From Ophiura sarsii (lineage: Eukaryota; Echinodermata; Ophiuroidea; Amphilepidida; Ophiuridae): a DNA stretch of 64,000 bases. Positions 7,019 through 60,208 of this stretch are shown in pieces. Position 1 is the first letter of the stretch. Every line of letters begins with the position of its first letter. The position numbers and the translations under genes are program-made. The notes below the pieces were generated by a model. The model saw only the letters and a list, made by a program, of their open reading frames with translations, did not search any database and was not told the DNA's origin. The stretch lies in NCBI GenBank assembly GCA_035610835.1, contig CM069442.1:32900452-32964451 (forward strand). Direction: 5' to 3'.

Positions 7019-7316
7019 CAACAGAGGACAGACCTCAGTTGCCTGTACATACTAATTGGGCTGTGTAATCACTCGATTGCTAATCTTAAAACACTCACCA
7101 CCTTATCATACACATCCAACAGAGGACAGTCCTCAGTTGGCTGTACATACTAATTGGGCTGTGTAATCACCCGATTGCTAATCTTAAAACACTCACCACC
7201 TTATCATACACATCCAACAGAGGACAGTCCTCAGTTGACTGTACATACTATTGGGTTGTGTAATCGCACGATTGCTAATTGTAAAACACTCAACACCCGA
7301 TCATACACATCCATCT
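7018..7316. repeat. Three tandem 97-98 bp repeats
   Basis: CCAACAGAGGACAG recurs at 7018, 7115 and 7213. Each unit includes CTGTACATACTA, GCTGTGTAATC and CTAATCTTAAAACACTCA. On the minus strand each unit is partly open (TEDCPLLDVYDK). The copy nearest 7018 runs into the family X coding block, so the repeat may have arisen from an exon border. Confidence 0.75.
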
Positions 7317-15353: not shown

Positions 15354-16985
15354 CCAAGAAGTCGAGAAACCTAGATAAATATCTTGGTAAGTCAACTTAT
15401 TTTTAGCCGATAAGACCAGAAGTCTAGATAATTATCCCAACAAGTCGACTTACTTGCGCCGAGAAGACGACATGATACGATGCCGTATCTTAACTAGTCG
15501 ACTTCCCTGCCCTAGGAAGATGACAAGGCAAGATCACTTGTCTCGTCTAGTCGACTTCTCTGTCCAAGAGAATGACAAGACAAGATCGCGTATCTTGTCT
15601 AGTCGACTTCCTTGCGCTGAGAAGACGACAAGACAAGATCCCGTATCTTGTCTAGTCGACTTCCCTGCCCCAAGAAGATGATAAGACAAGGTCACTTATT
15701 TCGTCTAGTTCACTTCCTTGCGAAGAGAAGGTGACAAGACAAGATCCTGTATCTTGTCTAGTCGACTTCCTTGCGCCGAGAAGACGACACGACAAGATCT
15801 CATATCTTGTCTAGTCGACTTCCTTGCGCCGAGAAGATGATTAGAAAAGATAACTTATCTCGTCTAATCGACTTCCTTGCGAAGAGAAGACGGCAAGACA
15901 AGATCCCATATCTTGTCTAGTCGACTTCCTTGCGCCGAGAAGATGATTAGAAAAGATAACTTATCTCGTCTAATCGACTTCCTTGCGAAGAGAAGACGGC
16001 AAGACAAGATCCCATATCTTGTCTAGTCGACTTCCTTGCGCCGAGAAGATGATTAGAAAAGATAACTTATCTCGTCTAATCGACTTCCTTGCGAAGAGAA
16101 GACGGCAAGACAAGATCCCATATCTTGTCTAGTCGACTTCCTTGCGCCGAGAGGATGATTAGAAAAGATAACTTATCTCGTCTAATCGACTTCCTTGCGA
16201 AGAGAAGACGGCAAGACAAGATCCCATATCTTGTCTAGTCGACTTCCTTGCGCCGAGAAGATGATTAGAAAAGATAACTTATCTCGTCTAATCGACTTCC
16301 TTGCGAAGAGAAGACGGCAAGACAAGATCCCATATCTTGTCTAGTCGACTTCCTTGCGCCGAGAAGATGATTAGAAAAGATAACTTATCTCGTCTAATCG
16401 ACTTCCTTGCGAAGAGAAGACGGCAAGACAAGATCCCATATCTTGTCTAGTCGACTTCCTTGCGCCGAGAAGATGATTAGAAAAGATAACTTATCTCGTC
16501 TAATCGACTTCCTTGCGAAGAGAAGACGACAAGACAAGATTCAGGATCTTGTCGAGTCGACTTCCTTGCGCCGAGAAGACGACAAGACAAGATCCCATAT
16601 CTTGTCTAGTCGACTTCCCTGCCCCAAGAAGATGATTAGAAAATATAACTTATCTCGTCTAATCGACTTCCTTGCGAAGAGAAGACGACAAGACAAGATC
16701 TCGTATCTTGTAAAGTCGACTTCCTTGCGCCGAGAAGACGACAAGACAAGATCCCATATCTTGTCTAGTCGACTTCCCTGCCCCAAGAAGATGATTAGAA
16801 AATATAACTTATCTCGTCTAATCGACTTCCTTGCGAAGAGAAGACGACAAGACAAGATTCAGGATCTTGTCAAGTCGACTTCCTAAATGATAGATGATCA
16901 GATTACAAGATCCAATATATTGTCAAGCCGACTTCCTAGAGAAGATCCCTAATTGCGAAGAGAAGACGTCAAGACATGATCACGT
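15354..16985. repeat. 53-bp/106-bp hairpin-forming minisatellite array
   Basis: About 27-30 monomers of 53 bp. In the core they form a 106-bp two-monomer unit: the word AGAT(C/T)CCATATCTTG or its variant starts at 15795, 15901, 16007, 16113, 16219, 16325, 16431 and 16537, exactly 106 apart. The A monomer contains AGACAAGAT and ATCTTGTCT separated by 5 nt, then the self-complementary AGTCGACT. The B monomer contains AGATAACTTATCT. The edges (15354-15450, 16870-16985) are degenerate, as expected if unequal exchange homogenises the centre. Frames of up to 159 codons arise from the repeat. They are not treated as genes. Confidence 0.9.
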
Positions 16986-20573: not shown

Positions 20574-21478
20574 GGTTATCATTTCCTTGCTGCTGTTGTT
20601 TGACGTTGTCCAAGCTCCTCCACCAACCTATACTGCAGCATCAATTGGTATCCCCGCAGTAGGCATTTCAAGGGACGAACTTGTTCGTCATTACTACACC
20701 ATCGGATACACCGCCAAACAGTTGATGTGCCTTCTGCTGTCTTGTCACAACATTACTTTAAGCCTGAGGCAGATCAGGCGGATCTTATCTAGACTACATA
20801 TTCGAAGAATGGACCGTCAGCACAATGTCAATGATATTATTGATGCGTTAAGGCGTGAACTCGAATGTAGTGGACAAAATTTAGGATATCGAGCCATGTG
20901 GAGGAGACTGAAGACGAAGTACGACATTCACATTACTCAAAAACTTGTATGACAGAGTCTTTCAATACTTGATCCTGATGGAGTTGATGCTCGATCCGCA
21001 CGCCGCTTGCGTCGAAGACGATATTTCAGCAAAGGACCGAACTACCTAGTGCACTTGGATGGGTATGACAAATTAAAGCAGTTCGGGTTTGCTGTTCATG
21101 GAGCGATCGACGGTTTCTCTCGAAAGGTGTTATGGCTGCATGTAGGATTTACTAACAATGACCCCCGTTATATTGCTCAGTTCTTTGTTGAGTACGTACA
21201 GCGTATAAACGGAGCGCCGTGTGTCATTAGAGGGGACAGAGGAACTGAAAATAGTTTGGTTCGTGACATACAACTTGCTCTTCGGTTAAATCACAACGAT
21301 ACTATGCGACATGTTAGTTTCATGTATGGAAGCTCAACTAGCAATCAACGTATTGAAAGGTGGTGGAGACATCTCACTGAAAACTCAACATCATATTGGA
21401 AGGAGCTTTTCAAATATTTACAGGATACCGGCGTGTTTGACAACACTAACCTGATACACATAGAGGCCTTAAGATTTT
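20574..21478 (+). pseudogene. rve-type integrase-like gene, 5' part
   Basis: A helix-turn-helix-like N-terminus (ISRDELVRHYYTIGYTAKQL, then SLRQIRRILSRLHIRR) precedes an RNase H-like integrase core with HLDGYDKLK, IRGDRGTEN and SNQRIERWWRH. These fit D, D and E catalytic positions. The sequence opens after a good splice acceptor (TTTTATTCTTTCTACAG), so an upstream exon may exist. A TGA at 20950-20952 interrupts the otherwise continuous frame. The frame is then broken by the LINE at 21479 and resumes at 25150. Known relatives are integrase-core proteins scattered in animals and fungi, of uncertain function. Confidence 0.7.
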
Positions 21479-24400
21479 TTTTATTTTTTTTTATTTTATT
21501 TTTTTTCCATTGTTTCTCTTTGCCTGTACTAGGGTCTGGTGGAAAGGAGAGAAAACATACAATAATGGTCCCCAGACCCCTGCTTTAAAATGTCACGTCA
21601 CAGATATAAGTACAATAATAAAATCACATATTGGGTTCACATTCCCAAGGGGTCAGGACCAAAAGCATCTCTGAGAAGAAAAAAAACCCCAAAAAGCGTC
21701 TTCAAAAACAATACAATTTTCTTTAAAAGAAAAATACCATGACGAAACCACTCGCGAACGCACCACGGTCACCCGAATTAATATACAATTCACCACAGCA
21801 ATTCGAGAGACAGCCATGCGCCCGCTCGCAGTCTCGCCATGAAGACACACCCTTCGTAACTTCTCCCACAGATAACCTTACTCGTCCCGACCCCCTAAGT
21901 ATCAAACCTCTGAATTATAATGTATTACATAAAACCGAAAAATCATCCCATTTCTTGGTAAATTTATCGGTAAGCCCATTCTTGATAAAAATATATTTTT
22001 CCATAGCGATGTACTTTGTTACATCTCTCTCAAATAATTGAATTGTTGGTATTCCTTCCTTCATTTTCATCTTGTATATTAGGAATCGACATATTAATAA
22101 TATAACATTAAGTGCACCCATGGTATTGTCTAAAATTCCAAAAAGTTGCATTTGCTTATCCAAAATTAACCGAATATCAATCTTTTGGTTTACCCAGTTA
22201 ACAACATCTATCCATAAAGCTAATGTGATTGGGCACTCACAAAAAACATGAACAATTGTTTCCTCTGCGTTTTTGCAGAAAGTACATAAATTTGAATCTT
22301 TCCTGCCAATTTTCTCCAAAAAAGAATTTACACCCAAAATTCTATGAGTCAAACGATACTGAAACCATCTTAATTTTGTATCTTGAGTACATTTAAAAGG
22401 TATGGTAAAAACAATTGACCATTTGGTATAATCATACCTCGTATTCACCTTAATTTCCCATTTCTCAGTAAATTTTCTTTTTACCTCCCTAGATGAGATC
22501 AGGATTTCATACAGCCTTCTAGATCCTTTATCATCAAGTATCACAATATCAAAATTGAAAGGTATAAACGGACGCTGAATACAGATCGTATTGTTCCTCA
22601 GAATATGATTACAAGATTTTTTGACACAATTTATCACTGCGCCATATTCTAGAAAGTTGGTCCGAATGTTATACTTTGTCCTGAACACCTCCAGGGAGAG
22701 AAAATCACCATTTTCATCAATAAGATCATTAACAAGGTTTACACCATTTTTTACCCAGTGACGATAGTATATTGTCTTTTTACCGAGTCTGATGTTGTCA
22801 TTATACCATATGGAATTCCTCAAAAAATCAGTATTCAACTTAGGCAGATTATTTCTTGCAATCTCACTCCATGCATTGAAAACATCCTTCCAAAAATAAT
22901 TTATTTTATTCCAGCGTTTTAAAAACTTAATAATATCTGAAGATCCACCTGCAATGTCCAAAATATGATTAATTTGTGTTACTTTGTAAAACATTTTCAC
23001 CCATTGAAGATCCCCTGCTTTCAAAATTCTTCTGATCCAAGTTGATTTCAAAGCATGTATGTAAGCCTGGATGTCTACCATTCTTACTCCCCCATTACTG
23101 TAATCTTGAATCATTTGATTTCTTGAGACCCTATCCATCCCTTTCCATATAAAATTGTGGAGCAACCTGTTAAGATCCTTTATAAATACCTCTGAGGGAT
23201 TCGGAAGTGTCAAGATTAAAAAAGTAAGTTTTGATAATATGAGAGACTTAACTACTGTAACTCTACCTAACACGGTAAGATTCCTTCTTGACCAGTTATG
23301 TATTAACTTCCGTATTGATTCCAAAACATCATCATAATTTGCCTTTATCATACTCTCTATATTAGTTGAAAAAGCAATACCTAGTGTTTTGAAGGTATCA
23401 TCTTCATTAACCCATTTTACATTCATATTTTTACAAAGAACATCGTTACTACCTCTTTTTGAACCAATCCACACTGCTTGTGTTTTTTCAATATTAACCT
23501 TAAGACCAGATATGTTTGCAAAAACATCCAATGTACGAAATGCAGCATTCATTGAATTTTCTGAACCATCTAGGAAAATTACTGTGTCATCTGCATATTG
23601 AGACAGCTTAAATTCTATGTCATCAATTAAAATTCCTTTAATATTTTCATTGCTACGAATCATTAACCCAAGGACTTCGGCGCAAAGAAGAAATAAATAC
23701 GGACTCAAACCATCGCCTTGTCGACAACCTCTGCCAACCAAGAACGACTCTGACAAAAACCCATTAACTAGAACTGAAGCTGAAGCCTGGTTATAAAACA
23801 CCTTAACCCATTTTTGGATAGATGGGCCGAAATTAAAGTTATGAAGAACCTTTCTCAGAAATAAATGTGACACAGAATCAAAAGCTTTCTCAAAATCTAT
23901 TGATAAAAACAATCCAGGTATATTTGTTTCTTCAGTCAAAAAAAGCAAATCGTACATCAAACGAATGTTTTCCCCTATATATCGGCCAGCTACAAACCCC
24001 TTCTGATTTTCATGGATTATGTTCAAGAGGTAAGATTTAATTCTCTCTGCGATACAGGCAGATGCAAGTTTATACGAAACATTTAACAAAGAAATAGGCC
24101 GCCAATTCTTTAAAAATTGCCTAGGTTTTTCTCCTTTAGGTAACAGGGTAATGATACCGTATTTTTGTGTAACTGATAAAGTGCCATGTTTATAGGCATA
24201 ATTCAGTGAACGTAACAGGAAACAAGATATGTCTTTAAAGAAGACTTTATAAAATTCGTAACTGAAACCATCTGAACCGGGAGATTTCCCATTTTTGCTC
24301 TTTTTCAACGCGTTTTTGAGTTCAACATGTGTTATAGGACCTTCAATCTTGTCTCTTTGAACATCTGAGAGGGTCTGTATATTTTCTGTATCAAATATTG

Positions 24401-25134
24401 ATTCTACATCTACCGATTCATCGATTTCCCGTCTAGAATATAAGTTCTGATAAAAACGTCTTGTTTCTAATAAAATCTCCTTCGAATCTGTAAGTACCGA
24501 CTCGTCTTCCCCTTTTACAATATTATTGATTGTTTTGTTAACAAACCGTCTTTTTTCCATATTCAAGAAGTACCGAGATGGTTTTTCCCCTTCTTCCATC
24601 CATCTTGTCTTGGATCTTACAAGCACTCCCTCCATTTTTGTTTTCCTAATTTCAATTAAGTCATTTTGTTTTGCTTTTAGCACTGGATCCAAAAGGTGCT
24701 CCCCTTGGGATATTAATTTCATCCTCAAGAATGCACTCAATTTGAACAGATTCTTTCTTTTTGTAAGCTGAATAAGAAATGGTTTTACCTCTAATTTCAA
24801 GTAAAAGCATTTCAAAAAATAACTGATCGTTAATAACAAATTGAACATCTTTTGGATTAATGTTTTTTAAATTAGACATGTTGTATGGTGTACATGCATA
24901 TTGTTCTACAACTTTTAAGATGATTTCATTTATAAGATCTACATACTTTTTATCACTTAACACAGAGTTATTCAGTTTCCAATATCCATTTCCTCTTTCA
25001 ATTTTACTCAAATCTAGTTGAATATCCACCAAGGAGTGATCAGTACGATATCCAGGTTTAATACTACATGCTATAATATTAGAATTTAATTCAGAAGACA
25101 TAAGAAAAAAATCCAATCTGGCTTGTTTATTTGA
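21479..25134 (-). mobile_element. 5'-truncated L1/Tx1-like LINE (3.66 kb)
   Basis: The element is minus strand, with its A-rich tail at the low-coordinate end (21479-21510 reads as T-rich on plus). AGGCCTTAAGATTTT flanks it at 21464-21478 and 25135-25149, a 15-bp target duplication. The 5' end lies inside the endonuclease domain, so the copy is truncated, as is usual for target-primed insertion. Confidence 0.92.
21915..25116 (-). pseudogene. LINE ORF2: endonuclease end, reverse transcriptase, zinc knuckle
   Basis: The frame 25116-24661 holds the end of an APE-type endonuclease (DFFLMSSELNS, then GYRTDHSLVDIQ). Around 24700 a frameshift moves reading into the long frame ending at 21915. That frame carries the reverse transcriptase: GFVAGRYIGENIRLMYDLL, FLSIDFEKAFDSVSH, GCRQGDGLSPYLFLLCAEVL and the catalytic QYADDTVIFLDG (about residue 418 of the long frame). 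A C-x2-C...H...C knuckle (CTFCKNAEETIVHVFCECP) sits near the C-terminus. This order matches L1/Tx1-group ORF2. The truncation and the frameshift make it inactive, but about 930 RT-side codons without a stop suggest a recent insertion. Confidence 0.88.
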
Positions 25135-30174: not shown

Positions 30175-30719
30175 ATAGAAGGCGTTGATGAATTATGAAT
30201 CATACAGCTCACTCTGTTTAAACGGCGTACAACTCGGACCAAATTGTCTATAATATCTCCATTTCTATCCCTAGATCGTTTATTGTCCCGCGAAAAAGTA
30301 GTTTACATAGTGTTATAGATTAAGGATTTTTAATCAAATTTAATCAAAAGTGATTTCTAAATATCATTTTTTTCTGGTGTGAAATCAATGTCAGAGACGC
30401 GATCGGCTGGCTGGCCGGCCGGCCGGCCAACATAATTTCGTTGGTTTCGAAACAGCGAGACCATTGGAAACAGTTCGAAGCAAACAAACCTGGGACCTGG
30501 GAGTAGAAGCGCATAACATATTAATTTCCCCTCATGCTAGCTAATGATGTTCAAACCATTCGACATTGAAGGCTGTATCTTTTTCAAGCAATCGCGGATC
30601 ATACGCAAGTATTTTTATCGTAGGAAATGGGTTTTTACTTTTTCTTGCAGTTTTACCTGGTAAAACACTTGAAGCGCTTTTTGCCCTTTAATGTGAAAGC
30701 TATCTCAGCTTCTAGCTCA

Positions 30720-31160
30720 CCTATGAACTTCATTAGAACAGTCTAATTCCAAAGTTTGAGCTGAAAATATGCAGCAGTTCTATTTTTACTGTGCAGTGTT
30801 CACACCAAATCTGTTCACACAGGAAATTAGAGTTTTTGTTCCGATATTGTTCTTGAAGTGCTTATTGGATTCAATAATTTGATATCAGAAGAAAGCCCCT
30901 ATTTGTCTGACACCTGTAAAATATTAGATCCAAAATATTTGTATTTAAAAAGTTACAAGTGAAAACGTAGCGAAAATGCATGGATGGTAATTATGGTGGT
31001 TACCGAACTGTCGCTACGTTTTCGCTTGTAACTTTTTCAAGCAACATCTGTCGACCGTAACATTTCACAGGCATAATGAGAAAAATAGGGGCTTTCATCT
31101 CGTATCAAAAAGTCCACTTCGATGGAAGAATCCATATGTGATCGGAACATACACCTTTCA
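30720..31160. mobile_element. Foldback element, AAACGTAGCGAAAA core
   Basis: AAGTGAAAACGTAGCGAAAA (about 30957) pairs with CGCTACGTTTTCGCTTGTAAC (31013), and further outward GAAAGCCCCTATTTGTCTGA pairs with AAATAGGGGCTTTC. A diverged half copy lies at 50990-51280 and includes ATTAGACTGTTCTAATGA, as here near 30735. Confidence 0.55.
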
Positions 31161-36170: not shown

Positions 36171-38408
36171 CTAACCCATTGATAAGATGTCATTACATTC
36201 AACTCTAATTAGATCTACTTTCTACAAAGGTTACTTTGCTGCACTAATACATCAGGGAGTTGCTATAGAAAGGAGAATGAATTTTAATCCAAGTCAATGA
36301 TCCATAATCTGCTTAACCCATTGTAATAATCACTGAACATGAATGGAGGTACCACTTCAGATTCACAACTCAGTACCAGTACAACCCGCATTGTGGTTTG
36401 CTAATATGGTTGATTGGTCAATGTACAAGTGTTGGAGTTGTTTTTGAATTTGCTAATAGAAATCATAAATAAAAGACTATTTCTGGTGCCATTGCTTATG
36501 GATACAAAATAAATAAATGTAGGTTTTTATATAGCAGTTACAATGTCTAGGGCATACTCATACCGTTAGATGGCGCTCAATGGACTATATAACTAGAGAA
36601 CAAACGCATAGCGCATGTGCGAGTAAATTAGTAAGTTTAAACCATTGAAAATATCACTAAAAACTTTCCGAAAATAGTAGAGACATACCTCATCATGTGT
36701 ACCAAACTTTCGGTTAATATTCTGCACAGTTAATCTCATCAAAGGAAATCAGGGCTTTGATGTATGAGGGAAATTAAGGTGTACAGCGAAGATAGACTTT
36801 TGGTGACCGGCATTTTGTAATCATGAACGGACTTAAGACGGCGATTCTGATTGGATCAGAGCCCAGAATTGACATTACTCACGCATGCACTATGCGTTTG
36901 TTCCCTAGTTATGGACTATATTCCTAGTAACTACCCCTATAACTCATGGGTCGACGAAGCAATTGAGATTAAATGCCTTGCCCAAAGGCATAAGTCCTGC
37001 ACTGTTCGTCTCAGGTTCCACTAGACCACACAAGCTCTTACGAAATAACCACTGCTACTTGTTAAAATCTTATAAACCGGCCGTAGAAGGTTTTCAGTGA
37101 AAACCAGAATGAAATCAGACAATTTTAACTCATATTACGTGAAATTACATGACGTATATTTATCAGTAGGTGCATAAATTACACATTTTCATATTAAAAG
37201 TAATAGGATGCGTGACTGAGCGGCAGTTATCATAATGCTATATGTTAACTAAACCACTTTTCTAGACCTTTACAGGTTAATTTGTATCAGGCAAACTTAA
37301 GCGTTTTGCTTTAAGATATGGTGAAAAAATAACGGGAGAGGAAATAAAAAAGAAATCACAAAAATTGCCGACACTAGATTGATAGTATGACCAGGGACAA
37401 TCAAATGGAGGGACAAGAAACTATTGTACTATTATATAAGTATGCGTGTTGCGGGGTATAAATATCATCAGTTGAGCAAGCATACACAATACATTCATGA
37501 ATGGGCACTGGTACAAATCTCAGCAATCATACTGCACGAGTCGCTGTGTGTCTTGTTCGATACGGATGGACCCTTAGTCGGGTGAAAGCTCGACATGACC
37601 ATGAAGTAGGGTACAACTGTGATTTTATTGCTGAAAATCATGGATGAGTAAGTCTAGATTCACACCACCGGGTACCCAAATGGTACTCTTGGGCAACTTT
37701 TTTTTATTGACGTCTTAAGCCATAATAATGACAGTTATAATAATGACAAATATATTTGCAACACAAACATCTTGTGTTTGGTATGAAATTTTAATTTCAT
37801 ACCAAACACAAGATGTTTTAAAAAGCACGGCCTAAAGATTCAAATTCAGGCTAATGACGCAATCGTTTTTATCTTAGCATTTTTAGTGTCTTAGCTGTTC
37901 TCAATGTTGTTAGTTTCAAAATATAAGTCTTTGCTTCTATTTCCAGCTTATTTTGAATAACTTTACCCGCAATGTTATGCTATCTCACAGTGTTTCCAAA
38001 TTAATGAGGCCTAATGTTGTTTTTACATGCCTGTACGCAACTATTCATATGTAAGATGTAGGAGAAGTAATATAATGAGAATACCGGTAACTGCAGTATA
38101 GGGGTTTCTTATGTTCTGAGGGTGGAATTGTGAAGTATTATATACTGTTGCCCTTCAACAAGGCACGGTTTTAATTAAACAAAATAACCACAAATAATGA
38201 AGACCATAGTCTCAATCTACTTGTATTAAATATTTGAACGTTTTCAAAAGAAATAATTATCAGTATGCTGATGTGCCTCTAACTCCAAATATATTACTAA
38301 CACGCACCTGATGTGTATGGAGACAGGCATTGACAGTTTGACAGTTTTACTTGTACCATGGATGAAGTATCACATCTTGAAATAGACAGGCAGGATATAG
38401 CGTTTTAT

Positions 38409-38488
38409 GTACGTTACATGAAATTACAAGTGACATGAAATTACAGGTGACATGAAATCACAGGTGACATGAAATTACAGGTGACATG
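38409..38488. repeat. 17-bp tandem repeat, about 4 copies
   Basis: GTGACATGAAATTACAG and its variants are repeated head to tail. Confidence 0.8.
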
Positions 38489-39535
38489 ACATGTATGAAT
38501 ACATTTTAATCACGTTTGACCTCTTTTGACTTTTGTATGTAGTTATTATATCATTTTATATGTATTCCAGGAGTCAACAGCTTAAATTTGATACCAAACA
38601 TGATATTTTGTTTATAAGACCAACTATATTTGTCATAAATATAACATTATCGAAAAGGGCGTGGCTTGACGTCAATAAAAAAAAACCCTGAATCTAGACA
38701 TTCCCCCTCATGTAACATTTTCAGCAATAAAATTGCATTTGTACCCTACTTCACGGTCATGTCATAATTGTGAAGATATCCACTTGACTACATACCTGTG
38801 CAATTCCTACTGAACTACTATACTCTAGAAATGCAAATATATATCATCAAAGAACATCATTTTCCGATTAATTTGGATATTGAATTCAATAGGAACAAAA
38901 TGTCTATAGTTTAAACTTCCCAGGAAAAATATTAATTTCTTTGTTCTAGCATGTTTTCACATTTTTTATAAATCTAAAATTATCACATTTTTCTCAAATA
39001 TACCGATTATTATTAACACTAGAACGTTATTTATTGAACAAATCACGTATAAATTGTATTCAGTTTGACCTAGGCCCAAGTTTTTTGGAAAATTATATTT
39101 TGATCATTTTTCGAAAGATTATAGGGCAACCTTTGAGTTCCTTAAATAAAAACACACCGCAACTACTAGAGCTAACCCGCAACACGCATGTTTTGTTCTT
39201 TTTTTGTAATTGAATACAATGATGTAACGATACCATAGGTCGTTTCTAGTCCCTCCATTCGATTGTCCCTGGTATGACCAAGACTTATGACTTAAGATGT
39301 AATTGATAGAGCTGCGTAAGCAAAAAAAAAATCTCACAACGAATGCTATGACTATATCAATCCAATTATCGCAATAGCAAATAGACTTGATTTAATCCTT
39401 TGATTAGGATATTGATCATAACCCAGGTTGTACAATAGGGAATTGGCTAGTCCATCCTCCTTTCTATAACAACTCCCTGATTACATTACCTTTAACTCTC
39501 TTTCAACAAAGGTTACTTTGTTGCATTACAATATA

Positions 39536-40590: not shown

Positions 40591-41107
40591 CTGAAAGAGT
40601 AAATAAAATATACATTTGAATAACTCTGAACTTTGAGGTCTTGTGTAATATTTCTCCCAATATTCAATCATTTTAGCATGATTCAGTTATTGGAAATACC
40701 GTGTGTCCCAGAAAGTACGGGTTCCTGTGAATCAGCAGCCATATCTAAAAATGTGTCTGCCATATTTGTTGAATTGATCGAACTGTTTTAAAGATGTGGC
40801 TTTGAATGTGGAAACAAATAAAACCCAGAATTTAGAACTTTGCTGGGTGCCGCTGATTTCGCAAAATTCCTTGCGATGGAAGACTTAGGTATTGTGAGTT
40901 ATAAAAAGCCGTGCAACCCAAAAGGAGATCTTAGAAAAATAAGGATTCCACGCAGATCAACTCGCCACATGAGAATCCAAGCACAACATGTGATTAGTAA
41001 CCTATCAGCACAACGAGGGGAATGAACTCTAAACATGTTTAGCTTTTGCATTATTTTGAGGATATCCGGGCGATATGTTACTCAATTAATGAATGTTTTG
41101 TCTATTA

Positions 41108-41216
41108 AAACTGCCTCATTATTTAGTGCCATGTTGGAAAAATATATTCCCAATTATTTTTAGATATACTTTATCGTAACTTTTCCATCATAGCACTAAA
41201 TGATGAGACAGTTTTA
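41108..41216. mobile_element. Small hairpin MITE inside the left TIR
   Basis: TAAAACTGCCTCATTATTTA is matched inverted by TAAATGATGAGACAGTTTTA. The segment is absent from the corresponding place in the right TIR, so it inserted after the transposon arms were formed. Confidence 0.65.
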
Positions 41217-42754
41217 AAAATAATGAGTTTACAGAACCTTCATCAATTCAGTAACAATTAAGTGTAATATTTTATTAATATCTGCAGGCTGCATGTATAG
41301 GCTGTCACATGGGGGTCGGCGGATTTTATTCATACCGCATGTGAATGATGGGTGGTTGGAACTATTACAAAAGCACATATTAAAAAAATCAACAATTACC
41401 CTCTTCACGGTTAAAGGGGCACTCCCTAAATATTGCCATTTTTGGGTAAAAAACAATAAAAAAAAGCCTTATTAATGCAAATTTGAAGATGATCTGAAAA
41501 AGTAAGGCAACAATATTTTCAAATAAATCAACTACTCCTTTGAAAAGGGTCATCTTGAGAATATCTCGAATAATTGTCAGTCTGTATTTAGCCTGATAAC
41601 ATATCTTTTTTGAAAACTCAATTTAGCCTATTTCAGGTTTTTACAGAAATCATAAAATTTGTATTTTTTAGAGTTCTTTGTCCATAAATTTTGCAAAAAC
41701 GCAGACAGATACAGCTGATTCATTATTTACAAGTGATAGAGCGACCCTTTAACTATTCAAAAGTGGTTTTAGAATCCTGGAACTTTTTTCCGTTTATTAA
41801 GGGGGTGGTTTTAAATAATGCCACTTTTAGTCAGGTATATTCTGGGAACGGACTATAGAAGTTGACCGTGTTCCCCGGTACTCCACCGAACCAGCTTTTT
41901 TTTCGTTCTTTAATGGCCCTTGACATATTTAAGATGTTTATAAGCCTTGTTTATACACCAAGCTTAAATTATTCAAGATGACGTCCAAAATGGCCGCCAA
42001 AATGGTAAATTTAGATAAAATAACATATATTGACCATAATGTAAGATCAAAGTATAGTTTAAATAATGCTATGAATGTATTAAACCACAAATAAAATCTC
42101 ATACGCAGTGCTTTAGATTTATTAACCTACTTTAAATTAAAGATGGCTGTCAAAAATGGCTGCCATAAATGTATAATTAGCCAATAACAGCATAGATAAC
42201 ACCAAATCCACCAGATATATGTTCTTAACCACTTATCTATGCTTTTAGATAACAAAAAAACAACACCATCCCGACAGTTTGTGATTATTGATAACTTTGC
42301 AAAATGGCCGCCAGATGATAAAGTTGATGACTTAAAACAGTTGTTTTGCAGTATAAACATCAATCCAATTCTTATACCCCAAAATCAAATCAAAATACTA
42401 AGTAACAGAAAGGTTATGTTATTATATTTCAACATCAGTTCTGTTTGATGCAATTTAAATATGGTACTCATTATAGACAGGGAGGTCTGCTACTTCTAGA
42501 CACCAAATCGGTTTCTATTTAAAATATTTCCTTTACAGCTTGCTGAGGTTCTTATCATGGTACATGAAATAAACATAAAGAGCCCTGCGAGTAAGTAGAC
42601 TCTTGAACTCCAATAGCTGTAACTTAAAAATTATGAACAGTTTCTGTCTTATGTTTATAAGAGGCTGACATTAGTCATGTGTATCATGAGACTGACATTA
42701 CTTAGGCACGTGAGACTGACCCTTTTTTGCGCCTAGTGTGCCAATCCCTTAGCC

Positions 42755-45700
42755 TTATTTTTGACAGCATTTATTGACTAGACCTCTTAATGGCTTCACA
42801 TAACTTTCTTTCCTGGTCACAGGTCCATCGATTTCTAAACCTAAGTTGTCACATATTTCAGACAAGTCTTTTATTCTTTTGTTCTTCCACTTGCCCTGGG
42901 AGATGAGCTTGCAAACATTGATGTCACCATATGTGATGGGATGACTAATGTCAATTTCCTGATAAACATGTTGGCGAAATGTCTCTTTTTCTCCTGTTAC
43001 TACCCATGACACAATATCATCATTATCTAAACTTCCTGCGACTTCATCTTTTGATGTCACTTTATCCCCGGCTGGTTTTTGTTTTTGTGCAGCAGCAAGT
43101 CTCGAAAACATACTTGAAATTTGTTTTACCGTGCACCATTCAGATGGTTGAAACTGAAAGTCTCCATCCACAGTCAGAGTTTTCATCTGCTTGGCTACTG
43201 ATTCAGGGTTTACCTTGCGCCCAGTTTTCACACCAATATTGAATTGCCCTATCAAAAATGTCTTTACATTCGTTGACATAGTGGTGTTTTTCCTTGATAC
43301 CTTCAAGGCCCAACCACGATCCATGATTCCTTCCTCCTGCTCACCGGCACCTGAAGATACATGTACAGTGTACTGCTGCTGTTCTTGGATGCCAGACACC
43401 TTATCAGCCCATTGTTTTCTTATTCTGTCATATGTTGTCTCCTGCTCTAGTTGCTTGACATGTTTACCTGCATCCATGTGAATTTCTGCTTCTTGGGGAG
43501 TTGAGAAACTCAAGTAACATCCACTCTCTCCGCATGGAAATAAGTTTGTCTTATTTGTGCCTCCTTCTCTCTGAGATATTGACGAGATAGTGCCTGTATT
43601 CTTATTCAGCGTAAAGTCTTGAACCACTATTAACCCAGTTTCTCCTTGAAGTGACTCTGCGATTGAATTGATTGCACATACTTTACCATCTCCAATGCCA
43701 TACGCCTTCCACATCCGAATGTTTCCATTGCTGTATTCAAAATTATTATACAAGCTAATACCTTCCAACTTTATATTTTTTGCATTTAGTTTTAGGTTGT
43801 TTATTTGACATACAGCGAATTGGCAACCAGTAATTCCTCCATGAGAATCAAGAGCCTCTTTCATTTGTTCTGCCGTCGTTACATCATGCTTTTCATTTAC
43901 ATAATGTTTTATGTGTGATTTCATTGGGGCAATTTTCCGGTCACAGATGTCTTTCCCCGATTGCGCATCAGAAAAGTCGTATCTGCAAATCGTAAATCCT
44001 GTGCGTTGTCCCAAAGCTGGTAAAGATAGGAGCAGTGCAGCATTGTGATAGCAGCCAGCATTGTCGCTTCGGAAATAAATTCTGGACAGTTGACTGTAAT
44101 TTGTCTTAATGTTTGTCAGAAGGTTCTCTATAATGCTAGCTACACTAAACCAGTTTTGAGTGCAACTTTCAAAGATGTGTACGTAGCAATCTACATTAAA
44201 CTTATTGGTATTCTTTGTGATGACCGCACTAACGTGCCAGTTTACTCCTCGTTTGCCAAAGAAGTCCGTCATCTTCTCCCGGAACTTCTGTGGCATAAAC
44301 TTCATTGCCCAGTCCATGACAATGAGTGCCCCGTCATCTTTTAGTTCTTGAAGAGCCTGTTGCTTGCCAAATTCCTGGTTTACAGTCCGGAGAAGATGGG
44401 ACTTCCATGTAGCTATATCAGACTTTTTATTTTTACAGTCATGCTCGCAACGAGATTTGTTTTGGTCTTGCATATCGCTGTTATTAATTTGTGTAAATAT
44501 ATCATTCAAAACATCCCGCAAAGCGTCACATCTTTCACATACAAGATTATGGTTATGATCACACTGAGAACTAAATTCATCTGGGTTTTTCTCATCACTT
44601 AAAGCATATGTCATGCAGTGATCACCGCATTCATCAGATTTTCCTATGTGCGATTTGAAGTCAATTTTGAGGTATCTTCTTGCCACTTTTAACTTATCTT
44701 TTACGCCTTTCTTCCATGCTTCATCGGCATTGCCTGTGTCAAAAAGGTCATCAACAATTTCAGTCAAACTGTCAAAGGCTTGGGCACCCTCTGTGGCAAT
44801 ATAATCAAGTCCTTGCATAGATTTTTGTTTCGAAGCACTGCATACATTTAAAATTTTAAAAAGGGTGCTATCTGAAGCAGGCTGAAATTCTGTACTGTTA
44901 CAGAACTCATTGTATTGTGCGATTATTCTTGATGGAATAGCTGTTCTTATTACATTGGGCATTAGTATGGTTTCTCCTGAATCCAGTTTCAGCTTGCGAG
45001 TACCGTAAGCAACATCTTGTAAGAGGGCCGGTTGCGAAATATAATCAATAAAATGATCAGCTTTTATTGGATCCAGTTTTATTCTTGTCCTTGCCTTCTC
45101 TTCCAATGGTTGTCCAATTCCAGCAGTTACAGCATGCAACCGTGCACTGTCAATGTGACTGATTGTAAGTCCTGGTATCATTTCCTGCAAAACACACTTT
45201 GAAAAATCATTAGCAAATAAAGACAAGATTTGTTGACGAGTTTGCCATGTATCAGCTATAAGGTATGCTTCAAGTATTGTGTTTATGGACTCATCATCCC
45301 ATTTCTTCCTTTTGTTGATTGAGGGCTGATTGTCTACGCGTGCGGCTTTTACTGCATTCCATAATTGTTGTTGTTGCCCAGGAGCAACAACTTCTAAGGC
45401 ACAATCAATTATTTCATTCATTTTTCTTACATAATATGTTTGTTGTGTCCGACCTATGTCTGTCCATTCTGTATTCAGAGTGGAATGAAGGGGACTGTGA
45501 GATCGTTCTCCAAGTCTTTCAAGGGTATTATTTAGGATTAAGCGTTTTTCATGCTGACATGTTTTTTCATCTTGCCATATGCTAATCTCAGCATCATCAC
45601 TACTGGACGTAGACAGCTCTTCTTCGGATACTATGGTAACGTGAAAACGACCATCGCTAGTGCCAGGCATATCATCTCCTTGCTGAACATATGATGCTTC

Positions 45701-48394
45701 ACTTTGCACCTGTAAAAGGAGACGTGTTTCACAATAAGTAAATACATAAATACTGCAAAACAATTTATACTATTAGAATGTTTTTCACTTTTTTTCTTCT
45801 ATTTCTTTTAGATAACGATTATATTTTGTAAGCATTGGGTTTTTTTATTGCCAGGTTACTGTTATATGAAGTTTGCGTATGCGAAGTACGGTTCGGGGGG
45901 GAAGGGGTAGCATTACTTGTTTAGCCTTCGGATGGATCCTAGTGGTAAAAAAACAAAAACAATAGCCGTCTCATTGCAGGAACACTGCAATAATCACTGC
46001 ATTCGCAACTCTCGATGCCAGCAACCTTGTCTCTTTGGTATACGGTCAATTATTGCTTGATTACTCACCATTTGATATGCAGAATATTGCCTGATAATAG
46101 ATATGGGGATCCGTCTCATATAGACTTATTTGTCATTTTCAAGGAGACTGGGTGGGAGTAAGCATATACTTTTATAAATGAATATCCTAATGGCCGAATT
46201 GCATAATACTAGGCCAAACAACACAAAATGAATAATGACCAGACCACATCTCATAGTTGTACTATTTACCTCTTGAGAAATTTCCATTGGCTCTGAATTA
46301 CTTGGAACTATCTCTTCAGCGATTTGATCAGCTTCCAGGTTATCCTGTTCAAAATATAAGAAAAAGTAATGAGCAACATGTGACAACTAGCTTTGGAGAA
46401 TGCAAACAATATATTTTGCACTGTATTAAATTAAGACATTAATCAAGGCAGGCACCTCACGTTTACCTGATACTCGTATGCTGTTTATATAATTCAAATT
46501 CAATAACAACGGTGGCAAATCAAAGCTCTTTCCCATAATTTGGCTCATATATCATCTATATCCGGTTCATACATATTTGGGTTTCGTACCTTATTGTTGG
46601 ATGAGCATCAAAGTGATCAACGGTGTAATTTAATGTTATTACTGTGACTACTATTGTTTTTGTTACGGAACTTTGACAGTAGTATAAATTTCAAAAGCAT
46701 AGAAATGGTACTACATGGCATAATTGTCATCACATATTGCAGGGTCAAACAATAAATGGAATTCCTATAGACCTACCCCAACACTACTATGTCTTCACTT
46801 GTGACCTTTGTAAAGAACGACCTATAATCTTACACAGTGAGAAAAACAAATATTCTAAAGCTTACCCCAATCGCTCACCCTAATCACTTTTACTTACCTC
46901 CTCTATTGATGAACTTTCAGAATTGTTGCTTTCACCTTTGTCTCGCTGCTCTCTGTAATGCTTTAATCGACATTTGTTACAGATAGCTGAAATTAAAAGG
47001 GGTATATTTTATGAATTTTCAGTGGCGTAACCAGAGGGGGGAAAGGGGGGGGGGGCATCTGCCCCCCAGTCAAAAGCCATGCCCCTCATGCCCCCAAATG
47101 AAATATGACAAAATACAATGTTTACCCATGATAGTGCAGTACATGAAAGTAGTTGATCAAATTGACTGTCGTGTTGGTTCAGATTAGCCCTGTCGGTCCA
47201 TTTGACAAGACTAATCATGGTATTATAATGGTCAAAAGTCCACATAAGAAGAAAAAAGTACACGGGCTACACGAGCATTTGTCCATAAAGTGCAATTTTA
47301 AGCTATCTGCAAAAAAATGCACCCCCATTTTTTAACTATGCCCTCGATTTTTAACCATGCCCCCCCCCCCCCCTTATGCCCCCCCAAAATGAAATACCTA
47401 GTTACGCCACTGTGAATTGGGCATATTTGAGAAGGTGCAGTACCGTAAATTTGTTGTTGGCTAGTGTGTGTGTGGGGGGGGGGGGGGGGGGGGGGGGTAG
47501 CGTCACTTTCCAGCTCATGGGGATGTTTGAGGGGGATATGGCCCACTCAGAGGCTGATTTTCTATTAATTATAAACGTGATTTATGCAATGTTGTGAATA
47601 CTTTTAGTCAACATTTTGATAAACGTCTTTGCCCCATTTTTATACCAATTGCACTAATTTAGGGTAACATTTTGATCCAAATTATCTAGTATATTGTATG
47701 TAAATGTGCATCACTTATAGGTTCATATTAATTGGAAAAGTTTGAAAAAAGGGCCCATTCATATAACAAATTAGTCAATGTAGGTGGTTCAATGCTAATT
47801 TAATCACATAGACATATTCATAATGAAAACAAATTGGGGTTACATTATACACCCTTGTTCAAAAAAGGGAAGAATTTATCCATGCACACAAACTCCCCCT
47901 GATTTACGTCTATGATTGGTTGGTATCCTAGTCTTAGAAATATAATTAAATAGTGAGAAGACAAACTTACCGGAGCCAATAGGAACAGTGACATTATATC
48001 TATTGAAGATCTGTTGTGACATAGGTTTGTTAACACGTCTGATGTTCAAATAAGCTCTCTTTTTCCCCTCATGATTCGGGTGTTTACATGTTTTCTGTCT
48101 CGCCCCATTCCAATTCACGCCCAAGTTATTCCTGTGTTTTGGACACACAGTAAGGTTCTCTAGTCTTTCAGTTCCATCAGCATGATCATAGTTAAAGATT
48201 CCTCCTCTATTGCATATTAGTTCCCATTCCTGTAACTGTTGTGTCCGCCCATGAGAAATGAGATGAAGAGCATGAAGAGATTTCAGGTATGTGGTTACAT
48301 CACCCTTTAATGCTTGTAGGGGAACAACAGTCCTATCACCAGATGAATGCACTGGTCCACATAGGCTATCCTCGGAATGGAATGAACAGCTCAT
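42755..48394 (-). CDS. Transposase-like protein, 1180 aa in four exons
   Basis: Exons 48394-47971, 46986-46898, 46344-46270 and 45709-42755 all have GT/AG borders (donors GTAAGT, GTAAGT, GTAAAT; pyrimidine-rich acceptors). They join in phase to 3543 nt without a stop. Exon 1/2 form a Cys/His cluster (CPKHRNNLGVNW, TCKHPNHEG, VPIGSG|AICNKCR), probably zinc-binding. The large exon contains three acidic motifs with RNase H-like spacing: LIVMDWAMKF (Asp about 662), YFRSDNAGCYHN (Asp about 745) and SGKDICDRK (Asp about 783/786). A C2H2 finger lies near 921-946 and a SAP-like helix pair (KRIKDLSEICDNLGLEIDG) near 1140-1160. I remember this architecture as a widespread, unnamed, multi-copy animal protein. 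Its position between long TIRs argues that it is the transposase. Catalysis is inferred. Confidence 0.75.
47020..47412. mobile_element. hAT-like MITE in intron 1 of the transposase gene
   Basis: CAGTGGCGTAACCAG at 47020 is matched inverted by CTAGTTACGCCACTG ending at 47412. The flanks TGAATTTT and TGAATTGG agree at 6 of 8 positions, fitting an 8-bp hAT duplication. CAGTGGCGTA is a widespread hAT terminus. The interior has G and C runs. Confidence 0.75.
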
Positions 48395-49330
48395 TTTCGT
48401 AACACCACAAAACTGTAAATGCTTTTCATAAAATCCAATTCAAAATGCTACATCCACAACACAACAAGTCATATATCCAAATTAATAATCTAGAAAGTCA
48501 GAGTTGTATCCATGTATACATGTTATAGGCTATATTATGTGATCCACCTATGATACCTAGTAGGTCTGTTTTGAGTTTGTCGATGTCTAAAATGCTCAGG
48601 CAGACCATGGTCAAATTAGTATAAACATGTTGCGTGTTTACGTTATAGTTAGTCCTTCAAAAGGACCCCACTTTACCTAATTTTATTTCTCTCTTAAACA
48701 AAGCTACTGCTGTCTACTGTGCTCAGGCAGCCCATGGTCAAATTAATGTAAACATTTGGTTGGTTGTTTATGTTATAGTTAGTCCCTCAAAAGGATCCCA
48801 TTTTACTTACTTTTCTTTCTTTCTGATAACAAAACTACTAGTAAGTCGAAGAATTGAATGCTTCAAATTTAATCTACTACTAGCATTTATGTTTATTAAA
48901 AACTTTGCCTATGGAAAACTATATCAGTTCTAAACAAGATATGTATTAAAACGGATGTGAAAGATGTGAGGTCCTATGAGGAGGACTATCCTTCAATTAA
49001 TCCTGAATTAATGTTAAATCTAGTTTAACATTATTTTGTGCATACATACCCTCAATGAAAAAGAAAGAGAAAGATAAATTTCAAATTTAAAGTTCTTCAT
49101 TATAACTGTTTATATTAAAGGCCTATCGTGAAGGACATAATGTTGGTAATTAGCCCTATTAAGGGGGCTGGGTGGTTTTTTTCTGGGGTAGGGGAATCTT
49201 ATAAAATGCAAGTTATTGTTTCAAGATTCTGCGGAGGTGCTGTCCATAACTGAATATTTTTAAGAAACCTCATATTAAATCCTTGGTATCATTTTGTCTT
49301 TGAAAATATCATAATTTTACGTTTTATATT
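48395..49330. other. Region upstream of the transposase gene
   Basis: No gene. It contains a direct duplication of about 126 bp (GCTCAGGCAG at 48594 and 48720, each followed by CATGGTCAAATTA, ATGTTATAGTTAGTCC or variant, and CAAAAGGA). It probably holds the promoter of the minus-strand gene, but I cannot point to a specific element. Confidence 0.4.
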
Positions 49331-50749
49331 TTTTCAAAATGGCCTTTTTCAACATAACCCCCTTAAAAAAATGAAAAAAGTTCCAGGATTCTAAAAACAT
49401 TTTTGAAGAGCTGAAGGATATAGCTATTTCAAAATGTTATTAAAGAAGCCATACTAGCCTGCGTTTGGAAAAAAAATAGCCTCAAAAATCTCAAAAAATC
49501 ACAATTTTCAGTTTTTTTCTCAGTTTGTAAAACACCTTAAGTTTACAGAGCTCAAAAAATATCTTCAAAAACTAGAAACAGGCTGCAATTTTTTTTGAAC
49601 AACAACAAGATAACACTTATTCAAAAGAAAGTTATTGATTATTCGAATGTAATTGCCTTATCTGCTTAATAACCCTGCACATTTGTCATAATTTGGTATT
49701 TTTTTAGTAATATTTTGACAAAAAAGGACCAATTTTAGGGAGTGCCCCTTTAAGTATGAAGAGGGCATCTGGTGATTTTTTTATTATTGGCTTTTGTAAT
49801 AGTTTCAACTAACTATCAATCACATATAATATGATTGAAATCGGCCGACCCCCATCTGACACCTTCTGCAGATTGTTAGAAAAAATAACACTTAACATAT
49901 GGCCCGGATATCCTAAACAAAAAATGCAAAAGCTGAACATGACTGTTTAGGGTTAATTAAAGGTGTCGCTCTGCCCCCTAGCTTAATCACACGTTGTGTT
50001 TGGACTCTTATGTGGCGAACTGGGCAATCCTTATTCTTCCAAGTTCTCCTTTTTTTGTGTAACTCATAATGCCTATAGTCTTCCATCGCGAGGAATTTTG
50101 TAAAAAACAGCGGCACCCAGCAAAGTTGTAAATTCTAAGTTTTATTCGTGTCCACATTCAAAGCCACATCTTCAAAACAGTTCAATTGATTCAAAAGATT
50201 TGTTCACACAAATTACCTAACGTAGAAGACATATTAAATCAAAAATAAAATGGTGGATATGGTGGATATATTTTTACATATGGCCGCTGATTCCTAGGAA
50301 CCCGTTCTTTCTGGGACACACGGTATAGCTCTTATTTGAATTTTGAATTCTACAGTACATACAAACTCATTCACACATTATGCTGTACTGAAAGGGGTGT
50401 CCTTGGGGTGTCCTGATTTATTTTTGCTAGTTTGTCATCATGATATAAAACCCAAGCATTTTTGTCAAATTGAATTGTCCATTTTCCACAACATTGTGTG
50501 TACATGGAGTTAAAATAAAAGGAGGGGTTGCAGGCAAAAGATATCTAATTTCTTTTCTATGAGCTACCAAATATTTGGTTCAACAAGTCTTCGGCATAAA
50601 ATTAATTCAATGTATTTTGCAATAATAACCAACAGAGGTTTGGTGATGAAAATCACCAAACACTGTCAATCACATAAATGTGTCTCCAAGTATTTGGTGA
50701 CTGCAATGAGTATTTTACTCGAATTTGGTTCTTTTTGTAACTCACATAC

Positions 50750-53700
50750 CGTGGGTGTCCCAGCATTAACCCATCCACCTTCCTGTGGTTCTGCTTTGGG
50801 CGTCAGTGCATCTGGTTTGTCTGGTTCCGTTCCTTCAGGCTCGTCTGAAGACGAAGATAAGGTTCCTGGCCCATCATTTACTGGCAAAGGAGAGTGGACA
50901 ATTATCATGATTATGATTTGGTATTGAACAAGCAATTATGACATATGACTTAAGTTACAAATGCATATCAGAATACCTCATCAAACACTGTATTAAAGGT
51001 GGTTATTATGATCACTTTTGGATACATCGATCGGAATCAAGTTTTTGGTATCAGATGGAAGCCCCTATTTTTCTCATTAGGCCTGTGAAATTTTACGTGC
51101 AACAGATGTTACTTGTAAAAGTTATAAGCGAAAACGTAGCGAAACTTCGGTTACCAAAAGTTCACCATGTGTGAGTCTATGGACAGATTTAATGTGAACT
51201 TTGACATCTCAAATTAGAACCACTTAATAATATTAGCTCAAACTTTGGAATTAGACTGTTCTAATGATGACTGTTCATATAGAATAGAAAAGAAAATGTA
51301 TTACATCGGGTCAAAAATCATAATATGCCCCTTTAAATATTCGCGAGGTTGCGCAAATTCCGTTTAGGTAAACGTAAACATAAATTCTATTGTTCACGTC
51401 TACCTTTACGCAAATCTCTCTATTTTCTGAGTATTTGGTGGTTAAAAATTAAGTTCTCTAATAGCTAAGGAGGTCTCATGTCCCCACAAACATGAGTTTG
51501 GATGAGTGTTTACGGCTCGAGCTTCATAATCCTAACCCATCTTTAGGGTGTTTTTTTTCAGAAAAAAACAACCAGTAGGCATGTTTCGTTATATTTTGCA
51601 AAATATAGACCAATTTTTTCCAAATTTTGATCATTTTTAACATGATTTTACATCATTGTGCACAATTTTTTGAAAATGTGAACAATCTTTAGGGACTTTG
51701 AGGGTCAATATGAGACCCATGTTTAGTGATTTTTTGATGAAAACCTACCCATTAAAGTTGAACACTACCGTATACCTTGATATGTAAGTACCCCCCCCCC
51801 CCCCTCCCCCGGATGGTTACAAACATGATATTTACCTTCATTAATGTCAACATCTGGCAAATCAGAAGACAGATCAGATGATGATACAGAAATTGGAGAG
51901 GAGGGTTTTACCTTTAAAAAGAAAAAAAGACAAATTACACAATATATCAGTGCTATATTTTAAAGGACGACTTTATCAGTCTCATCACACGCTGGAATAC
52001 CATATTAGAACCCAACACTTGCTGATTATTATTTTAATTTTTTCCCTCAACTCTTGTGGCATTCCGAAAGAATCCTAATTACTAACACATTATTAGAGTT
52101 TTAAAATTCTTTCTTCACGCAGTCTTTGAGTATCATCGTCACCCAGCTCGGCATACCACATATGGTTTGTGTTTGCCGATCACCTCCTCTGCTACTTCAG
52201 CAACATACTTCTCAAACTGTTCATATCTCTCTGTGATTGACGTTGATGTATCATCACAACAGAGATCCTTAAACCTGTTTGACAGCTTGATCTGGAATTT
52301 CTGTTTGGTATCAGCATCTTGCAGCTTCTTCCAATAAAACTTTGGCCTCTTGCATGGTTTTCCTTTGGAGGTACGGAGGCTGGTGGTAACGAATTTATCC
52401 ATTTGCTGTTGATAAGTATATAATCCAGTTGGTGAGTGGATCCTCCTGGATGCTTGGTGAAAATCTTGTTTGTGCAGGGCGAAGCTTACATTCTTGGCAC
52501 AAATTTACCAGTCGCTCCCCATTTTCATTTGTTTTATTATAAAAACAGTGGGGTCCAATCACCATAGGATGTGAAGGAAGTGTGACTGTTCTGGCCTAAG
52601 CATTGAAATCACCAATGATGAGATGTTTATCATGTTTCTTCGCCTTCTCCAGATGGTCTTTATTAAGGGCACTGTAAAAGGCATCTTTGTCTGCAGTACT
52701 ACTTGATTCAGTTGGTGTATAGATGACAGTGACGGTAAGCTTGGGATTACCATGGAAAGTGGCTCTTCAAAATGGATATTAGACGATATGGCTATTGGAC
52801 CAAATGGGTATTAGACGAAGTGGCTATTGGACCAAATGGGAATTAGACTAAATGAGGACTAGACTATATGGCTATTGAACCAAATGGTTATTGGACTAAA
52901 CTAGGTTAGACTAAATGGTTTTGGACCATATACAATTAGACCAAATGGGTTTATACCAAATGGGGATTCACCGTTCACATGGCTTTTTATACCCTTACGA
53001 AAATGCAGTCATCAAATTGAGCTTGTGCAAGCGTGCACAAGCTTGCTTGGAGCTTGTATGTGCTTGCATGGAGCTTGCAACAAATTTGCAAGAAGCTTCT
53101 GCATACATTTTAAAATTGCAATTTTGAATTTGTGATTGTGCAAGCTTGTGCACGCATTTCACAATTGCTTGCACCGCAACACATTTCAAATTTGCTTGCA
53201 CTGCACACATATGCTTCCAATAGTTCATGTGCACGCACTTCAAAAATGCCTGCCTGAACTGCACGCATTTGCTTCCAAGGGTTTATGTGCACGCATCGCA
53301 AAACTTCATGCCTGGACTGCACGTACATGCTTCCAAGGGTTTAGGTTTTTGATTGTGCAAGATATTGTGCATGACCATGACTAAGTTGCTAATAGGTATC
53401 CATGAAGCTGCCATTGAATTTTCAGTAAATAAAAGCTAATCGGAATCGGGGAAAAGTTTTGTCTATAGGCTGCTGTGAATTTTAAAAAAAATGCTTTATC
53501 ATTGCTTTCTTATTACAGTTCTGTTCACTGTTATAGTGATATTTCAAACAATATTAGACTATGTGCTCTCCATTTTATTTTTCTATTTTCAGGAATGAAT
53601 GTAATCTGTACAACATAATTTGAGCAATGCGCAGCCTTGTATTATGTTTAAGTAATTAGATAGAATGTTACATGTACGTATTTAGTGTTTTCAAAACGAT

Positions 53701-59059: not shown

Positions 59060-59299
59060 GAAAAGTTGTCTGCTACGTCTGATAATTAGTTCATAAATTG
59101 TTTCTTATTTCATTTCTCGAATGATAATGTAACTGAAATATGGTGGATAACATGTGAATTGATAACCCCTTGACATAATTAAAACTCTAACCACCGGGAA
59201 TAATGTCCTATAACCCTAATCCCACTAGACCATACAAAATTAAAAAAATAAAACTATCTCCATGCAGGTGCTGCTGCATTGGCTCGATTACGTCACCTA

Positions 59300-59500
59300 C
59301 CGCAGGCATATGTGGCCACGAAGTTTGTGGCCGCATATGCGCTTGGGAGTTAGCTCAGTTGATAGGGGCACAGACTGGGGTGCGAATGGTCCCGGGATCG
59401 AATCCCGGGGGGTGCTCGGTGATTTCTCGGGGTAAAAAAATTGTACTTTTCCCCCCTCCCCTGATACACGCACAAACGTAGCCGTGGGAGTTAGGGTTAA
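59300..59500 (+). mobile_element. tRNA-derived SINE
   Basis: GTTAGCTCAGTTGATAGGGG (A box) and CCCGGGATCGAATCCCGGG (B box, perfect T stem) are spaced as in a tRNA. The acceptor stem does not pair and the region is followed by an unrelated tail, as in tRNA-derived SINEs. Just before it, GCATATGTGGCCAC and GTGGCCGCATATGC form a 14-bp inverted repeat with one mismatch. It lies antisense inside the MULE relic. Confidence 0.6.
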
Positions 59501-60010
59501 GCCAAGCTCGTTCAGTTTCCGCATGAGCGACTGTAAAAAATGGAAGTAATAACATCCCTGCCCTCTAGCCCCTGGAAGCTCTCTTCTGATTGCATTGACC
59601 AGTGCAACCTCAAAGTCTGATATTACCAGAGTTGGCGCAAATTGCTGGTTTGTGATCCCCCAAATCTCTTGCTTCAGGCACTGAAGGATAAAACGGTACT
59701 GGTTGTCTGTCTTTCCAGTAGAGAGAGACATCGACAGCGGCAGTGTCCATCCATGGTACCTGCCATGCACCGTAATGATCTGCGTGTAAGGATGAGGTGC
59801 TGTCTTGAAAGTACCGTCAATATATATCTCTGTACACTGAGAAAGTGTTTCCAACTCCTCTTGGGATGCGAAAATACAAACTCCAATCATAATACCCAAT
59901 GCCAGAAGCTTCCGATCTCTGTCACACGTCTCTCCCCAAGAACCTTGAATATTTACATCAGCAATTGTGGCTGGAAGCGGAGGGATCAGGGTTAGTGGCT
60001 TTGCTGTGAG
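59500..60010 (-). pseudogene. MULE transposase relic
   Basis: The minus strand is open from about 60008: ADVNIQGSWGETCDRDRK, then EIYIDGTFKTAPHPYTQIIT, GWTLPLSMSLSTGKTDNQYR, VISDFEVALVNAIRRELPGA and GCYYFHFLQSLMRKLNELGL. This matches the MULE transposase domain, with catalytic Asp residues in YIDGTFK and ISDFE. The reading then enters the SINE, so the C-terminal part is lost. No terminal repeats were identified. Confidence 0.75.
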
Positions 60011-60208
60011 CTCCTGACATCCTCAAAACTCAGAGCTAAAAATGACCCTCTATAGCCCACCTCTATTTAAAGAAATTGAAAGGAGAAAAGGTATGCGATG
60101 AATTTCATGAGACAAAGTTCTTGTTTTTTTGCCCAACGGGATGACAAGTACAAGTCCGAGAGATAATTTTGTATCAATGAAATTAGATTAGTATGCATTA
60201 ATTACCTT

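Follow-up and report, generated by a model that had tools for sequence, protein, structure and literature searches.

Several groups of DNA transposons invite comparison with the element described here. Those of the IS630-Tc1-mariner (ITm) group—Mos1, DD41D/Visitor and Sailor, for example—have a TA target, which is putative for this element, the spacing of the second and third acidic residues, and the predicted fold of the protein in common with it. The element occupies 9625 nt (positions 40699–50323) of a 64-kb window, by which we mean the whole stretch of Ophiura sarsii DNA that was analysed (contig CM069442.1). It probably is, or once was, a cut-and-paste transposon driven by the 1180-aa protein that it encodes.

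Retroviral-type (rve) integrases carry a D-N-G motif at the second Asp and, like the Ginger/IS481EU group, generate target duplications longer than TA; Kolobok duplicates TTAA. Between the second and third acidic residues, the hAT, P, MuDR, Kolobok and Dada transposases have a C/DxxH signature (PMC9587614), and those of EnSpm, Transib and Plavaka, of CMCT, have C(2)C and H(3–4)H (PMC12730594). PHISTA and ESTA, members of PHIS and CMCT, are fungal, duplicate TA, and carry a TET/JBP gene (PMC12730594). Sailor transposases are 323–676 aa in length (PMC8533490). PMC4455052 was also drawn on for the comparison.

Ends and arms of the element

The exact 17-mer CCGTGTGTCCCAGAAAG occurs at both ends of the element, on the plus strand at 40699–40715 and on the minus strand at 50307–50323. 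Even with up to three mismatches allowed, these are the only two matches in the whole window, where shuffled sequence leads one to expect 0.04. Just outside each of these inverted, CCGTGTGTCCC-like termini stands a TA, at 40697–40698 on the left and 50324–50325 on the right, putatively the two copies of a 2-bp target site duplication. The left flank ends in AATA and the right begins with TATA; the TA/TA arrangement follows when CCGTG is taken as the first bases of the element, and by eye no direct duplication is left if the boundary is moved by one or two bases. The first-pass annotation of this DNA had described the same terminus at both ends with TA outside, which is what we find; its element stands, too, with limits (40701–50324) that were 1–2 nt off.

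From the termini, inverted arms of about 1 kb extend inward, as had been claimed: 1129 nt on the left (40699–41827, plus strand) and 988 nt on the right (49336–50323, minus strand). Blastn aligns the arms in pieces whose identities, with gaps included, are 87%, 76% and 69%, the first being the outermost 67 bp and the other two lying further in. Aligned globally, they agree at 736 of 886 ungapped columns (83%), 345 gap columns of the 1231 being excluded. Their local alignment score of 275 far exceeds the highest obtained from 200 shuffles in 2-base blocks (33) or from 182 random pairs of sequences from the window (39). The left arm is the longer partly because it harbors a nested, palindromic miniature inverted-repeat transposable element (MITE; approximately 41081–41257), a hairpin of about 177 nt inserted at TTA; the right arm retains the same site without the MITE, that is, an empty site. 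With RNA parameters, a 184-nt stretch at this palindrome folds at −53.2 kcal/mol.

The transposase-like gene

Between the arms, on the minus strand, lies a gene of four exons: exon 1 (424 nt, 47971–48394), exon 2 (89 nt, 46898–46986), exon 3 (75 nt, 46270–46344) and exon 4 (2955 nt including the stop, 42755–45709). The introns, of 984, 553 and 560 nt, are all GT-AG, and splicing proceeds in phase to 1180 codons, exactly as the annotation had it. Two proteins of the coral Oculina, P0021 (1165 aa) and P0067 (1145 aa), cover residues 1–1176 and 1–1180 at 42% identity. Since these align with nearly all or all of the spliced product, we take the splice pattern to be right and the four-exon gene model, judged by sequence comparison, to be sound. 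The motif VPIGSA(I/V/L)C..C spans the exon 1/2 junction, and the Cys/His cluster previously noticed at the N-terminus, encoded by exon 1, belongs to a region conserved in full-length relatives.

The longest stop-free stretch of the gene, 1004 codons, is more than five times the maximum of 180 found in 100 dinucleotide shuffles; the remaining stop-to-stop open reading frames (ORFs) of at least 100 codons in the element are that of exon 1 and a pair antisense to exon 4, 107 and 104 codons long. Intron 1 carries a passenger of its own, a 393-bp MITE (47020–47412) with CAGTGGCGTAAC ends which, from those ends, we presume to be of hAT type. Upstream of the start codon, at 48584–48839, is a tandem repeat of 130 bp in 1.9 copies.

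The predicted catalytic core

The core of the protein is predicted to be RNase H-like, with a DDD triad, and so the structural check proposed in the annotation came out as its author had expected. The predicted catalytic domain of 316 aa (43562–44509, minus strand, as are the codons that follow) was folded alone with a mean predicted local distance difference test score (pLDDT) of 89.8. D662 (44312–44314), putatively the first catalytic Asp, sits in strand one of the model; D745 (44063–44065), the putative second, is in an S-D-N-A motif directly after the fourth strand; and D786 (43940–43942), the putative third, belongs to a GKDICD motif that opens a helix, with D783 as the alternative. The triad is near-invariant in the family, with 40 residues between D745 and D786, and S/T-D-N-A/G-x-x-Y/F/H surrounds the second Asp in 132 of 135 proteins.

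A family found in several animal phyla

When residues 280–1110 were used as the query, 317 proteins were found at E ≤ 0.001 among 6497 candidates, the best 120 of these being 39–52% identical to the query. A divergent member, used in the same role, yielded 454 proteins among 7996 candidates scored, of which the best 120 were listed. Hosts named among the matches listed include corals, sea anemones, an octocoral, amphioxus, limpets, a mussel, an oyster and a nemertean, and the proteins, among the same matches, are mostly called uncharacterized, hypothetical or C2H2-type: a widespread and unnamed animal family, as the annotation had it. One member, P0105 from Paramuricea, has 'Transposon Tf2-6 poly, partial' as its source name. 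Among the open-licence papers listed in literature searches, none deals with the family in its title or abstract. A tree of 30 named proteins, taken from 134 family members, plus the window protein separates the cnidarian sequences into two groups and places several deep lineages within single species. The window protein is no more than 51% identical to any member of the tree, which does not fix its place.

Pfam has little to say about these proteins. The exon 4 protein matches no family at E ≤ 0.5, and the two large exon ORFs match none but one non-transposase family at E 0.15; the earlier remark that no superfamily could be assigned agrees with this. Among 30 members, SAP was recognized in 11 (best E 3.5e-4), C2H2 in three and Urocanase in two, with no transposase family among the 25 of 37 Pfam families shown. 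As a control, MULE transposase, integrase core and reverse transcriptase were all recognized in other ORFs of the window. The C2H2 finger and SAP-like tail that had been assigned to the window protein are accordingly detectable in some relatives and not in the protein (exon 4) itself: the finger-like segment (approximately 43460–43534, minus strand) is placed by the family profile and some members, and the tail (approximately 42803–42895, minus strand) by alignment to P0021.

Used as a separate query, the N-terminal 170 aa had 59 candidates, none of which reached E ≤ 0.001, a negative that probably reflects the word filter, because full-length relatives carry that region. Sequence searches of the PDB returned nothing with the single protein; profiles retrieved C2H2 fingers and, apart from these, just weak matches of no evident relation. 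PHROGs gave only weak matches to families of unknown function, and Rfam none. Viral contigs and prokaryote genomes contain 46 and 79 pattern-matching stretches, respectively, none of which encodes a relative; the end pattern has no match in either, and the left arm is absent from the phage records searched.

The same insertion at a second locus

The genome (1.57 Gb, 748 contigs) was searched for the exact end of the element, counts of repeats being lower bounds; the end pattern read backwards, as a control, had no match. Of the three places found, two are the ends of the element itself and the third lies on another contig, in a segmental copy of part of the window. Window positions 30272–51341 turn out to have an inverted copy on this contig, C14 (12700708–12711240), in three long blocks that are 97.2–99.6% identical. 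The copy stops abruptly on both sides, and where it does so no terminal repeats are obvious; close to the ends of the duplicated segment, at 30730–31158 and 50995–51267, there are inverted repeats related to each other.

On C14 the element is 988 bp long and consists of the outer right arm, the MITE and the outer left arm. The 8.6 kb from window position 41262 to 49885, gene included, are missing, the junction lying, by eye, at a shared TTAA, and no transposase fragment was found in the 26 kb examined. Both TAs are kept, and one of the ends has one altered base. We considered this locus as an empty site and as a second insertion, and rejected both: its flanks are those of the window (99.9% identical on the left, 96.6% on the right), and so it represents the window's own insertion, carried along when the segment was duplicated. 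The full form, we infer, is ancestral and the 988-bp form derived, because the similarity of the arms extends to their inner parts as well. The deletion fits incomplete repair after excision and ordinary microhomology deletion alike, and therefore does not prove transposase action. A different element of 1.9 kb, with inverted ends CCAGGGACAATC.. / ..GATTGTCCCTGG and GTCATAC repeated at its flanks, occupies 37393–39272 of the window; for this one, C14 provides a clean empty site with a single GTCATAC.

What kind of element?

The arms, the TA flanks, the intact gene centred between them, and the predicted fold together point to a mobile element, as the annotation had proposed, and 'autonomous' is apt in the sense of structurally intact, not in that of shown active. 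A number of observations weigh on the other side. The one further locus found with the exact end, on C14, is the same insertion: the exact end occurs at at least three places in 1.57 Gb, all of them this insertion or its segmental copy, and among the exact-end matches examined there is neither a second independent insertion nor an empty site. TA as the target is suggested by one locus, and 17% of the ungapped columns in the alignment of the arms are mismatches, a share that rises if gaps are counted. In Foldseek searches, no PDB entry reaches E ≤ 0.001 with the full model; the single match of the domain at that threshold is a herpesvirus terminase nuclease (3.8e-4) and not a transposase, Mos1 ranks only 23rd (E 0.016), and the best match among viral models is an Ostreid herpesvirus protein (8.8e-5). 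A predicted fold, moreover, is by itself no demonstration of activity. We take both herpesvirus matches to be general RNase H-fold resemblance, because the template-modelling (TM) scores are low, while allowing that a real link is possible.

If the element did transpose, the zinc-binding and SAP-like accessory regions would most likely recognize the conserved outer parts of the ~1-kb arms. The transposase would then pair the two ends, cut next to CCGTGTG, and reinsert the element at a TA which, to go by the one locus, would be duplicated. The small number of exact ends found (at least three in 1.57 Gb), the divergence of the arms and the MITEs nested in the element argue against a recent burst. 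Because of those MITEs and the very few exact ends, and despite the complete reading frame, this copy would seem to be old and to move now rarely, if ever.

The rival that survives best, unlikely as it is, makes the element a very divergent ITm member. It has in its favor the TA, the short spacing between the second and third acidic residues with no inserted domain, and long arms comparable to those of some DD41D and Sailor elements. The element differs from ITm in its four exons, its Cys/His-rich N-terminus, its C2H2-like and SAP-like parts, and its 1180-aa protein, against the 323–676 aa given for Sailor in PMC8533490. The window protein (exon 4 and the two large exon ORFs) matches no Tc1, mariner or pogo profile, nor do the 30 members among the families shown, and GRPR, GRKP or GRRP occurs in none of the 135 family proteins. 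Retroviral integrases, finally, score equally well or better in VIA-align, where they form the top rows. Because it shares the putative TA target, the spacing and the predicted fold with ITm, and not profiles, GRPR or protein size, the element may belong to a sister lineage of ITm or to a separate superfamily.

The other known groups fit less well. The second-Asp motif resembles the D-N-G of rve integrases; the longer duplications of these and of Ginger/IS481EU set them apart from an element flanked by TA; Pfam finds no rve domain in the window protein, and it did recognize rva_4 in another window ORF. KolobokP/Kolobok, hAT, P, MuDR and Dada are DDD/E transposons, as this element probably is. 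By eye, there is no C/DxxH between D745 and D786, and the flanks, AATA and TATA, fail the TTAA of Kolobok. The 40 residues contain no CxxC, a single His and no H(3–4)H, unlike those of EnSpm, Transib and Plavaka, and are too few to accommodate an inserted domain. The PHISTA and ESTA families have the TA target that is putative here; those described in PMC12730594 come from fungi and possess a TET/JBP gene. We draw no inference from the absence of hAT, RAG/Transib and piggyBac transposases from the best 50 VIA-align rows.

Quite unlikely, in our judgement, is a gene of the host, whether domesticated or at no time mobile, that came to lie between inverted repeats by chance or because two related foldback copies later inserted there in opposite orientation. 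An intact gene, diverged arms, nested MITEs, the few exact ends (at least three, with no more found in the genome) and the noncommittal names of the listed relatives would all suit such a gene. Against it stand arms with a common terminus that run ~1 kb inward from a TA on each outer side, a gene entirely inside them, the predicted core with its near-invariant triad, and several divergent paralogues per species, which is typical of mobile elements. On C14, in addition, the gene has been lost and the flanks preserved, so there, at least, it is dispensable. That the gene is a relic or captured passenger of foldback-family ends moved by another transposase is very improbable: the few exact ends found and the geneless 988-bp derivative would suit it; against it, the gene resembles that of a transposase and is complete, and no further long ORF lies between the arms.

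A transposon moved by its own protein remains the explanation we prefer. Because members of the family occur in several phyla of animals, and because Pfam finds no transposase match for the window protein, it would seem to be a DDE/D transposon lineage of its own, which we call new only provisionally. More tentatively, at what we would call just under an even chance, the element is a founding member of a superfamily, so far undescribed and spread across the animals, that targets TA and is characterized by a DDD triad with a fixed spacing of 40 residues, a gene of four exons and ~1180 residues, and arms of ~1 kb.

Other features of the window

Elsewhere in the window, Pfam recognizes an rva_4 integrase core domain in an ORF at 20953–21588 (E 9.7e-29) and a MULE transposase domain in one at 59297–60022 (E 5e-10). 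A 983-codon ORF at 21915–24866, with reverse transcriptase and zf-RVT domains, belongs to an element of the long interspersed nuclear element (LINE) type. Many copies of a repeat with a step of ~106 bp form a tandem array at 15379–16981, and a similar array occurs on C14 at 12692533. Two minus-strand ORFs, of 240 codons (6312–7034) and 214 codons (4223–4867), have no Pfam match at E ≤ 0.01.

Implications

Surveys that rely on profiles could overlook a lineage of this kind; the one in PMC10294476, for example, started from profiles of 17 known superfamilies. The annotations of coral, mollusc and amphioxus genomes probably list such copies as host genes. If our reading is true, a large animal protein family for which neither a name nor a Pfam transposase match was found would gain both a function and a home among mobile elements. 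Should the bolder superfamily reading hold, its many relatives recorded as 'uncharacterized' or 'C2H2-type domain-containing' in corals, anemones, amphioxus, molluscs and nemerteans would turn out to be transposases, or to descend from transposases by domestication.
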